Assembly (NCBI GenBank): GCA_021325355.1
Contig: JAJPHI010000016.1
Location: forward strand, 1-64,000
Source of the DNA: Pseudomonadota bacterium
GTDB taxonomy: Bacteria; Desulfobacterota; Binatia; Binatales; Binataceae
Length of the DNA stretch: 64,000 nt
Direction: 5' to 3'
The notes below the pieces were generated by a model. That model saw nothing but the letters and a program-made list of their open reading frames with translations, had not been told where the DNA came from and did no database searches. Made by a program: the position numbers and the translations under genes. Below, piece after piece: positions 12,448 to 16,608 of this stretch (position 1 is the first letter of the stretch; each line of letters starts with the position of its first letter).

Positions 12448-13266
12448 ATGAGCCTTAGTCTAATCACCAACGTGGGTTCGCTGATCGCTTCCAACGCGCT
12501 GACCAATGATCAGACGGCGCTCAACCAGTCGATCGCGCAGCTCTCGACCGGCAAACGGATCGTGACCGCGGCCAACGACCCGGCCGGTCTCGCGATCGCG
12601 ATGGAGACCCAGGGCTTGATCGGGTCGCTGAACCAGGCCTATGCCAACACCCAGAACGCGCAGTCGTACCTGCAGACCGCCGATGGCGCTTACGCCAATA
12701 TCGGTAATCTGCTGCAGACGGCGCAGCAGCTCGCCACCGAAGCTTCCGACGGATCGTTCAACAGCACGCAGCTCAGCGCGCTCGACGCGCAGTATCAGGG
12801 CATCCTGAGCTCCATTTCGCAGATCGCGGCGGGGGCGAGCTTCAACGGCATCTCGCTGCTGTCGGGGACCGCGGTGACCTTTCAGGTCGGCGCGACCAAC
12901 ACCGCCAACGATCAGCTCTCGGTGACCCTGAATAAGGCCGATACGACGACCCTGGCAATCAACGGCACGAGCCTGACCTCGCAGGCCAACGCGCAGGCGG
13001 CGTTGACCGCCGTCAGCGCGGCGCTGACCACGATCGCCGGTGACCGCGGCACGGTGGGCGCCGCCGAGCAGCAACTGACGGCCTTGTCGAACAACCTGCA
13101 ATCGACCACGCAGAATCTGACGAGCGCGCTGTCGACGATCCAGGACGCGAACATCGCGCAGACCTTCGCCACCTTCACGCAGCAGTCGGTGCTGCAGCAG
13201 GCGGGCGTGCAGATTCTCCGGCAGGCGGATCAGACCCCGTCGCAGTTGGTGGCGCTGTTCCAATAG
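12448..13266 (+). CDS. fliC: Flagellin FliC
   Basis: This is the filament subunit, exported through the flagellar secretion channel. The 272-residue size is that of short flagellins with only D0 and D1 domains and a small variable centre (about 130-190). The N-terminus has the helix pattern Q-L-S-T-G-K-R-I-V-T-A-A-N-D-P-A-G-L-A-I, and the C-terminus ends Q-A-G-V-Q-I-L-R-Q-A. The TLR5-contact region reads L-Q-T-A-Q-Q-L (89-95), with Thr where enteric flagellins have Arg90. An AGGAG site lies 11 bases upstream of the ATG. It starts the divergent operon fliC-fliD-fliS. Confidence 0.95.
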   Translation: MSLSLITNVGSLIASNALTNDQTALNQSIAQLSTGKRIVTAANDPAGLAIAMETQGLIGSLNQAYANTQNAQSYLQTADGAYANIGNLLQTAQQLATEASDGSFNSTQLSALDAQYQGILSSISQIAAGASFNGISLLSGTAVTFQVGATNTANDQLSVTLNKADTTTLAINGTSLTSQANAQAALTAVSAALTTIAGDRGTVGAAEQQLTALSNNLQSTTQNLTSALSTIQDANIAQTFATFTQQSVLQQAGVQILRQADQTPSQLVALFQ

Positions 13267-13294
13267 GTCGGCCTGGGGGGAACGCGGCCGGCGC

Positions 13295-13312
13295 CGGCGT
13301 CAGCCGACGCCG
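13295..13312 (+). other. Stem-loop between fliC and fliD
   Basis: A perfect 7-bp stem (CGGCGTC / GACGCCG) with an AGCC loop lies 29 bp after the flagellin stop. There is no T-run, so it is not a standard intrinsic terminator. It may stabilise the 3' end of an abundant fliC transcript and lower read-through into fliD. Confidence 0.35.
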
Positions 13313-13356
13313 CGTCGGCCGCAAATCACGCGTCGCGGCGCAAGCAGGAGTATTAG

Positions 13357-15009
13357 ATGGCTGCCGGAGTAACCCCGATCACGCTGTCCAATTTTACGGG
13401 CCTCGATTTCAATCAGATACTGCAGGCGACAGTCGCCGCCGATCAGGTGCCAATCACCGATTTGCAGAACCAGGTCGCAGCGGAGAACGTCGCCATCAGT
13501 ACGCTCGGAACGATCGGCGCGGATTATCAGAACCTGCAGAGCGCGCTGACCACGCTCAACGACAGCGTCACGACGCCGCCGATGACCACCGGCGTCTCGA
13601 CCAACGCGCCGTTTACCGCCGCCGTCAACGGCGCTCCGCTGGCCGGCACCTATACCGTGTCGGTATCGCAACTCGCCTCGGCCGAGTCGCTGGGCTCGCA
13701 AGGGTATGCGAGCGACACGGCGGGCGTCGGCGACGGTATCGTGACAATCAATGTCGGCGGCACGAACTACAATATAACCGTCGATTCGTCGAACGATACG
13801 CTCGATGGACTGGCGAGTGCGATTACGGCGGCCGGCGCGGGCGTAACGGCACAGGTCGTCAATACCGGTCTTGTCGGAGCGCCCTATCGCCTGCTGGTCA
13901 CCAGCAATACGACCGGCTCCACACAGGGCTTTACCATCACCAGCTCTTTGAGCGGCGGCACCGCGCCGAACTTCGCTCAGAGTCAGGTGGGTCCGACGGT
14001 GATCAACACGCTCAACGGCACGGCGACGCCCACAGTCGGTGGGAACTATACCGGAGCGGTTACGCAGAGCTATCAGTTTACCGTCACTGCGGGCGGCACC
14101 GTCGGAACCGATCCGATTACGATCGCCTACACCTCCGACACGGGTGAAAGCGGCTCCTTCACGGTACCGGCGTCGTACAGCGCCGGGAGCCCGGTGGCTG
14201 TCGTCGACGGGCTGACGTTGAATCTGAGCGCGGGGACGCTGCAAACCGGCGACAGTTTCGGGGTCGCGGCCTTTACGCCGCAGGTGACCGCGGCGCAGAA
14301 CGCGACGCTCCAGGTCGGCGGCCAGATCGTGAGCTCGAGCAGCAACCAGGTCACCAACGCCGTTCCCGGAGTGACCCTGTCACTGACCGGCACGGGCGGT
14401 CCGGCAACCCTGACTGTCGGCTCCGATACGCAGAGCGAAGGCAATCAGATCAGCGCCTTCGTCAGTGCATACAACCAACTGCTGAACGATATTCAGAAAA
14501 ACACCCAGGCCGTGCCGAATCAGGCCGCACCGCCGCTGGCCGCCGACGGCGGTCTCAGGACTTCCCTGTTCAGCCTGCAGTTCGGGCTCGGCCAGGTGAA
14601 CCTGGCGCAACTCGGTATCACGGTCGATCAGACGACCGGCCAGTTGAGTTTCAGCCAGAGCTCGTTTGCGGCGGCGCAGTCGGCGGATCCGACCAGCGTC
14701 ACCCAGGCGATCACGTCACTGTATAACGCGCTCAATCCGGTGGTCAGCTACGCGGCGGCTCCGACCACAGGACTGGTGGCGACGGAGACCGCGAGCGACC
14801 AGCAAACGGTGACGAATCTCAATCAACAGATCGCGACGCTTAATCAGCAGCTCACCGCGCAGGAGAGTCAACTGCAACTGGAGTACGGGCAGATTCAGGC
14901 GCAGGTCGCCGGTTACCAGAATATCGCGCAACTCTTCGCGACCTCGAGCAGCAGCGGCAGCGGTAGCTCGGTGACCATTCCGGGCAGCAATCTCACGGTT
15001 TCGGCTTGA
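13357..15009 (+). CDS. fliD: Flagellar filament cap FliD
   Basis: FliD is the pentameric cap that inserts flagellin at the filament tip. The 550-residue protein starts with the FliD N-terminal domain (T-L-S-N-F-T-G-L-D-F-N-Q-I-L-Q). It has a large beta-rich middle (about 85-330) and ends in the C-terminal helical domain, where a heptad-like stretch near 470-530 contains many Gln and Leu. AGGAG six bases before the ATG marks the start. It is followed by fliS, 30 bp downstream. Confidence 0.92.
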   Translation: MAAGVTPITLSNFTGLDFNQILQATVAADQVPITDLQNQVAAENVAISTLGTIGADYQNLQSALTTLNDSVTTPPMTTGVSTNAPFTAAVNGAPLAGTYTVSVSQLASAESLGSQGYASDTAGVGDGIVTINVGGTNYNITVDSSNDTLDGLASAITAAGAGVTAQVVNTGLVGAPYRLLVTSNTTGSTQGFTITSSLSGGTAPNFAQSQVGPTVINTLNGTATPTVGGNYTGAVTQSYQFTVTAGGTVGTDPITIAYTSDTGESGSFTVPASYSAGSPVAVVDGLTLNLSAGTLQTGDSFGVAAFTPQVTAAQNATLQVGGQIVSSSSNQVTNAVPGVTLSLTGTGGPATLTVGSDTQSEGNQISAFVSAYNQLLNDIQKNTQAVPNQAAPPLAADGGLRTSLFSLQFGLGQVNLAQLGITVDQTTGQLSFSQSSFAAAQSADPTSVTQAITSLYNALNPVVSYAAAPTTGLVATETASDQQTVTNLNQQIATLNQQLTAQESQLQLEYGQIQAQVAGYQNIAQLFATSSSSGSGSSVTIPGSNLTVSA

Positions 15010-15039
15010 CGCCGAACGTATCAAAGGGAGCTACGGCGG

Positions 15040-15402
15040 ATGGGATACGCGAATGCCTACCGCGAGACGCAGGCGGTAACACTCGACGGCAACCGCGCCT
15101 TCGAAGAGCTTTACGTGCGACTGGCTCGCTGGACGGCGCAGGCGGCGGAGTCGTCGGGCACGCCGCTCTACGAGCAGTTGATCGATAAATGTGTGATGCT
15201 GATCGGTCTGATGGATCGGGTAATCGACGTCGAGCACGGCGGACGGATCGCGCTGGCCATTCTCAGTCTGCATCGCTTCGCGATTGGCGCGCTGATCAAG
15301 GCGAAACAGGAGGGAGTGCATCCCGATCTGGCGGGCCTGCCGCCGGTGTTCTACGAGATGTCCGATATTTTCCGCTGCGTGCGCGAGAAGAGCCTCGGCT
15401 AG
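15040..15402 (+). CDS. fliS: Flagellin export chaperone FliS
   Basis: The 120-residue helical protein matches FliS in size and position directly after fliD. FliS binds the flagellin C-terminus in the cytoplasm to stop early polymerisation. The N-terminal Y-A-N-A-Y and the following helices fit, but the sequence is divergent: the common L-I-x-M-L-Y-D-G segment reads F-E-E-L-Y-V-R-L here. A GGGAG ribosome site lies upstream. The assignment rests partly on context. Confidence 0.8.
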   Translation: MGYANAYRETQAVTLDGNRAFEELYVRLARWTAQAAESSGTPLYEQLIDKCVMLIGLMDRVIDVEHGGRIALAILSLHRFAIGALIKAKQEGVHPDLAGLPPVFYEMSDIFRCVREKSLG

Positions 15403-16044: not shown

Positions 16045-16335
16045 TTACTGGTCACCATGACCCGGTTGGCTGCCTTCCGGGTGATCTTCCGAGGCGCCGC
16101 CGCGCTCATCCGCGGAATCGCCGTTGGCTGAGCCACGCGCGGGATCCGGGCGCGGCGTTCGGCGTGAATGTTCACCACCGATCCGACCCGCGGCGCGCGC
16201 CTCCTCGGGCGTGAATTCGTGGGCCGTGCCCTTTTGATGGGCGGCATGACCGCCCTTGCTGGCAATTGACCGTTGCTTTGCCGGATCCATCGAGGCAAAG
16301 CCGCGCTGCGACCGAGGTTTTTCCTTGTCCGCCAT
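16045..16335 (-). CDS. KGG-repeat stress protein (GsiB/YciG type)
   Basis: This is a 96-residue hydrophilic protein with the KGG signature. F-A-S-M-D-P-A-K-Q-R-S-I-A-S-K-G-G-H-A-A-H and a second degenerate copy, F-T-P-E-E-A-R-A-A-G-R-I-G-G-E, occupy about residues 13-55. The C-terminal tail is Gly/Asp/Ser/Glu-rich and disordered. The family is linked to general stress and desiccation. The ATG forms the base of a perfect 12-bp hairpin whose loop contains the Shine-Dalgarno sequence (see the entry at 16333-16363), so translation is probably controlled by RNA structure. Confidence 0.8.
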   Translation of the reverse strand: MADKEKPRSQRGFASMDPAKQRSIASKGGHAAHQKGTAHEFTPEEARAAGRIGGEHSRRTPRPDPARGSANGDSADERGGASEDHPEGSQPGHGDQ

Positions 16336-16363
16336 CGGTACTTCTCCTTCCGAAGTACCGATG
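16333..16363 (-). promoter_or_regulatory. Hairpin covering the KGG gene start codon, SD in loop
   Basis: Bases 16333-16344 and 16352-16363 are perfect 12-bp reverse complements (CATCGGTACTTC / GAAGTACCGATG) around a 7-base loop. Read on the minus strand the loop is GGAAGGA, the ribosome site, and the last three bases of the 3' arm are the ATG itself. The start codon is thus paired and the SD exposed in the loop, an arrangement expected of an RNA switch or thermometer. Function is inferred from the structure only. Confidence 0.55.
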
Positions 16364-16608
16364 CTTTAAGTTCAATTGTTATACCAATTGTAAGGCGCTG
16401 CATTGGCGCAAGGCGCCGTCTTCTATACCGATAGTTTTATTGACTTTCCCGCCAAGGAGACGGCCTGACGTTACCTTCGCTCGTCTTTTACCGTTGCGAT
16501 GAGCCGTGCGAAGATTCGGCGGCGGCAGTGTGAAGTCGGCAAAAATCGCGCAGGCGATCACCTTGTCGGACGCGCGATAAACGGACGATTTGTGCAACCC
16601 GCGATACT

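Follow-up and report, generated by a model that had tools for sequence, protein, structure and literature searches.

The start codon of a small KGG-family gene in an uncultured bacterium lies at the very end of a perfect 12-bp inverted repeat, whose transcript is predicted to fold into a stable hairpin that buries the AUG. Probably the hairpin is peculiar to this genome or an accident. Our preferred explanation, held with moderate confidence, is that it is a recent inverted repeat confined to one genome, which would work as a fixed cis attenuator and lower the translation of the KGG gene if transcription begins upstream of it.

The hairpin and the KGG gene

The window analysed here is the whole stretch of 64,000 nucleotides. 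On its minus strand, read in the sense of the mRNA from 16363 to 16333, stands CAUCGGUACUUC-GGAAGGA-GAAGUACCGAUG. The 5' arm (CATCGGTACTTC, 16352-16363) and the 3' arm (GAAGTACCGATG, 16333-16344) form an inverted repeat that is complementary at 12/12 positions (100%), and they enclose the 7-nt loop GGAAGGA (16345-16351). The last three bases of the 3' arm (16335-16333) are the start codon of an ORF at 16045-16335. The initial annotation had described the perfect repeat, its 7-base loop and the placing of the KGG-gene ATG at the 3' end of the stem correctly; that the stem begins with CAT is uninformative, because any stem ending in ATG must begin so. It had also described the ribosome site as looped out, which holds for five of the six Shine-Dalgarno bases: the first five of AAGGAG are in the loop and the remaining one is in the 3' arm. 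Judged by its sequence and its 8-nt spacer before the ATG, AAGGAG is a normal Shine-Dalgarno sequence.

The ORF, on the minus strand, encodes 96 amino acids and matches PF10685, the stress-induced bacterial acidophilic repeat motif (Pfam E 3.4e-12; 46.8 bits against a cut-off of 20.4). We consider the start call sound, since the ATG of the hairpin is the sole in-frame ATG, GTG or TTG in the interval from the in-frame stop that precedes it to the conserved RGFASMDPAKQ block. Two other ORFs run through the hairpin, with starts at 16375 (TTG) and 16403 (ATG); neither is in the KGG reading frame, and no Shine-Dalgarno sequence was seen at either start. Downstream of the KGG gene and on the same strand lies a gene for a small basic DUF6496 protein (PF20106; 15442-15912).

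A candidate extended -10 box, TGGTATAAC, is located at 16378-16386 on the minus strand, and a transcript from it would begin near 16370-16372 and retain both arms. We infer the box and the transcript start from the sequence, because a promoter scan found no complete sigma-70 promoter. Just upstream of the hairpin there is also a near-palindrome, CAATTGTTATACCAATTG (16373-16390), which includes a TATAAC-like box and which we take to resemble GntR/FadR-type operators. No second site for its core was found in the window with up to two mismatches allowed.

Predicted occlusion of the start codon

The computed stability of the hairpin alone is -21.1 kcal/mol at 30 C, -18.7 at 37 C, -16.9 at 42 C and -10.5 at 60 C. 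Pairing of the AUG is predicted to persist even at 60 C, at more than 90% for its first two bases and about 80% for the last one, and the loop is predicted to be unpaired from 30 to 60 C. The earlier claim that the stem pairs the start codon is thus upheld as a prediction. Inhibition by hairpins at ribosome-binding sites sets in at about -5 to -6 kcal/mol (PMC3669281), and the value of the KGG hairpin at 37 C lies far beyond this onset.

If transcription begins upstream of 16363, both arms would be present in the KGG mRNA, and the stem would be expected to form immediately upon synthesis, with the AUG buried and most of the Shine-Dalgarno sequence left in the loop. The 30S subunit would then be strongly hindered from reaching the AUG, and the KGG protein kept low. 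Occlusion of the start would make the hairpin a fixed cis attenuator, provided that the transcript starts upstream of 16363. What one would look for in an attenuator is present in one respect, a stable stem predicted over the initiation region with the AUG paired, and absent in another, pairing conserved by covariation. A fixed block of this strength would almost silence the KGG gene, which is odd for a gene that is kept unless the block is relieved.

Conservation, chance and origin

No second copy of the hairpin exists in the host genome, and none was found in viral contigs or, with up to three mismatches, in 147 other genomes of the class, the same-genus genome included. We then have 86 usable homologous start regions (80 GTDB loci and class relatives, with one genome counted twice), whose start codons were assigned by a simple Shine-Dalgarno rule. 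In these, the longest stem touching the start codon is 6 bp and the mean local fold is -4.8 kcal/mol; in six class relatives the stems at the KGG start codon are only 1-2 bp. The relative with the closest start sequence, G028 (AGGAGAATCATCATGGCGGAT), keeps the Shine-Dalgarno sequence and the coding start and is missing the 5' arm. An alignment of the KGG leaders of the class revealed no shared pairing. Since the 86 homologous starts, the class genomes and the aligned leaders are all without a matching stem, there is no covariation. Conserved pairing or compensatory changes in related genomes, on which the initial annotation had staked its regulatory reading, therefore did not appear among these distant homologues; the comparison concerns distant homologues because the set contained no close relative carrying the KGG gene.

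The initial annotation had further held that so exact a structure is unlikely by chance. As a chance model we used an order-1 Markov sequence of the genome's composition (2.78 Mb), and counted perfect stems of at least 12 bp with loops of 3-10 nt. Only three occurred, about 0.07 per 64 kb, and against this model the claim stands. A 464-kb sample of the real genome, 400 kb of it in stretches used as background, contained 15 such stems, however, about one per 31 kb. Perfect stems are thus enriched in the genome relative to the Markov sequence, and most of the 15 are intergenic by crude gene calls, as terminators are. Of those in the sample, the KGG hairpin alone was confirmed to lie on a translation start. 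A second stem on a called start (C12 157401-157442) was rejected, the start having been mis-called behind an efp-like gene. In the ranking of local folds, the KGG start region is the third strongest of 418 called genes, with -20.1 kcal/mol (mean -8.6, sd 3.6). The same stem is contained in a 141-nt plus-strand fold around the site (z -3.9; 0/200 shuffles).

Two further pairs of perfect hairpins were noticed in the genome. On C12 at 157353-157442 (L106:13353-13442), adjacent stems of 22 and 19 bp lie between the efp-like gene and the gene that follows on the minus strand; these are probably terminators, though unusually long and paired. At C20 174131-174220 (L116:14131-14220), close stems of 18 and 14 bp lie between convergent genes, with a T-rich stretch after each.

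The 12/12 stem, its sharp ends and the lack of any trace in relatives suggest a recent single-step origin, for example by template switching during replication, which can produce perfect stems in a single event (PMC8794818). This origin is a hypothesis. An inverted repeat arisen in this way might also be a functionless accident, which either is of no consequence or has badly impaired a gene that can be spared. We regard such an accident as unlikely, and several observations are in keeping with it: the hairpin is private to one genome, the KGG gene is sporadic (8/145 genomes searched, host genome included) and was not found in the sole same-genus genome of the comparison set, and with perfect stems as common as they are in this genome, simple arithmetic (15 stems, 419 starts) gives about 0.4 expected overlaps of a stem with a start in the sample. 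However, for a stem to stop precisely at the ATG, a criterion chosen post hoc, is about 30 times rarer than for it simply to overlap a start, and would be a coincidence if the origin were purely accidental; moreover, both the KGG reading frame and the Shine-Dalgarno sequence are intact. As to the surroundings of the gene, homologues of the upstream 262-aa gene occur in 19/37 relatives, and no KGG gene was seen adjoining them in the nine flanks that were read.

Is the stem controlled by a regulator or read as DNA?

A dedicated switch, in which an RNA-binding protein or an antisense RNA acting on the loop or the arms opens or locks the stem and sets KGG levels under stress, is unproven and in our view quite unlikely. 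Three things would fit a switch: the end of the stem coincides exactly with the AUG while the loop holds the Shine-Dalgarno sequence; stress regulates KGG genes in Salmonella and E. coli (PMC7161692); and a permanent block makes little sense without relief. Against it stand the lack of both conservation and covariation and the lack of any Rfam match above the gathering score, as well as the failure to detect CsrA and Hfq. The binding hairpins of CsrA/RsmA have a GGA in a loop overlapping the Shine-Dalgarno sequence (PMC8346122), and the GGAAGGA loop of the KGG hairpin shares this feature. Unlike in the CsrA/RsmA systems (PMC8346122), CsrA itself (PF02599) was detected neither in the host genome (about 95% complete) nor in 34 other genomes of the family, with positive controls; it was detected in eight genomes of other families. 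Hfq and FliW were likewise not detected in the host genome. Single gene absences are not proof, because this genome is about 95% complete. The protein-bound switch that had been proposed is thus not borne out for the CsrA type, and the antisense control proposed beside it found no positive evidence. With CsrA and Hfq undetected in the lineage, one may conceive of a lineage-specific translational switch, in which the AUG is locked and ribosomes or an unrecognized regulator land on the Shine-Dalgarno sequence presented in the loop, but this we consider very unlikely. A flagellar cluster with flagellin, FliD-like and FliS-like genes lies at 12448-15402, in a genome where CsrA and FliW were undetected.

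It is also of very low probability that the repeat does not act as a structure of the KGG mRNA and is instead a DNA operator, a plus-strand terminator or an assembly error. The perfect dyad speaks for such a reading. For an operator, the single genomic site means that there is no regulon, and the neighbouring genes that were read encode no DNA-binding regulator. On the plus strand the repeat was marked as resembling a terminator, its T-rich tail (CTTTAAGTTC) being weak, but no plus-strand gene ends just upstream. The sequence is known from one metagenome-type assembly only, although nothing points to misassembly.

Comparison with known systems

The initial annotation had proposed an RNA thermometer, in which warming melts the stem and the start codon becomes accessible; this is extremely improbable even with the start codon predicted paired and the gene of a stress type (PF10685), since the perfect stem is predicted to hold -10.5 kcal/mol at 60 C with the AUG still mostly paired. 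As in ROSE-like RNA thermometers (PMC3669281), the KGG hairpin lies in the 5' leader of a stress-related gene, at the ribosome site. ROSE-like hairpins are conserved, pair the Shine-Dalgarno sequence imperfectly with -4.1 to -7.6 kcal/mol while the AUG stays free, and melt at 37-42 C; a ROSE-like variant with perfect Shine-Dalgarno pairing lost both activity and ribosome binding (PMC3669281). In the KGG hairpin, by contrast, the AUG is perfectly paired and the Shine-Dalgarno sequence is exposed, mostly in the loop; no melting is predicted in the physiological range (-16.9 kcal/mol at 42 C), and the pairing is unconserved. Being perfect and too stable, with the AUG paired and the Shine-Dalgarno sequence exposed, the KGG hairpin is not a thermometer of known type.

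For a fixed attenuator, our preferred reading, the comparison is with the initiation hairpin of the MS2 phage coat gene, which is weaker than the KGG hairpin. Both are short and have the start codon and the Shine-Dalgarno sequence inside, and in MS2 the stability of the hairpin sets translation (de Smit and van Duin, discussed in PMC9894550). Unlike the phage hairpin, the KGG stem is a perfect 12 bp that ends on the AUG and leaves the Shine-Dalgarno sequence in the loop, and its effect is a predicted one. As one unconserved site it says little on regulation in general. If the hairpin acts, it would be a clean natural case of a start codon occluded while the Shine-Dalgarno sequence stays exposed, and perhaps an example of a hairpin created by one mutation.
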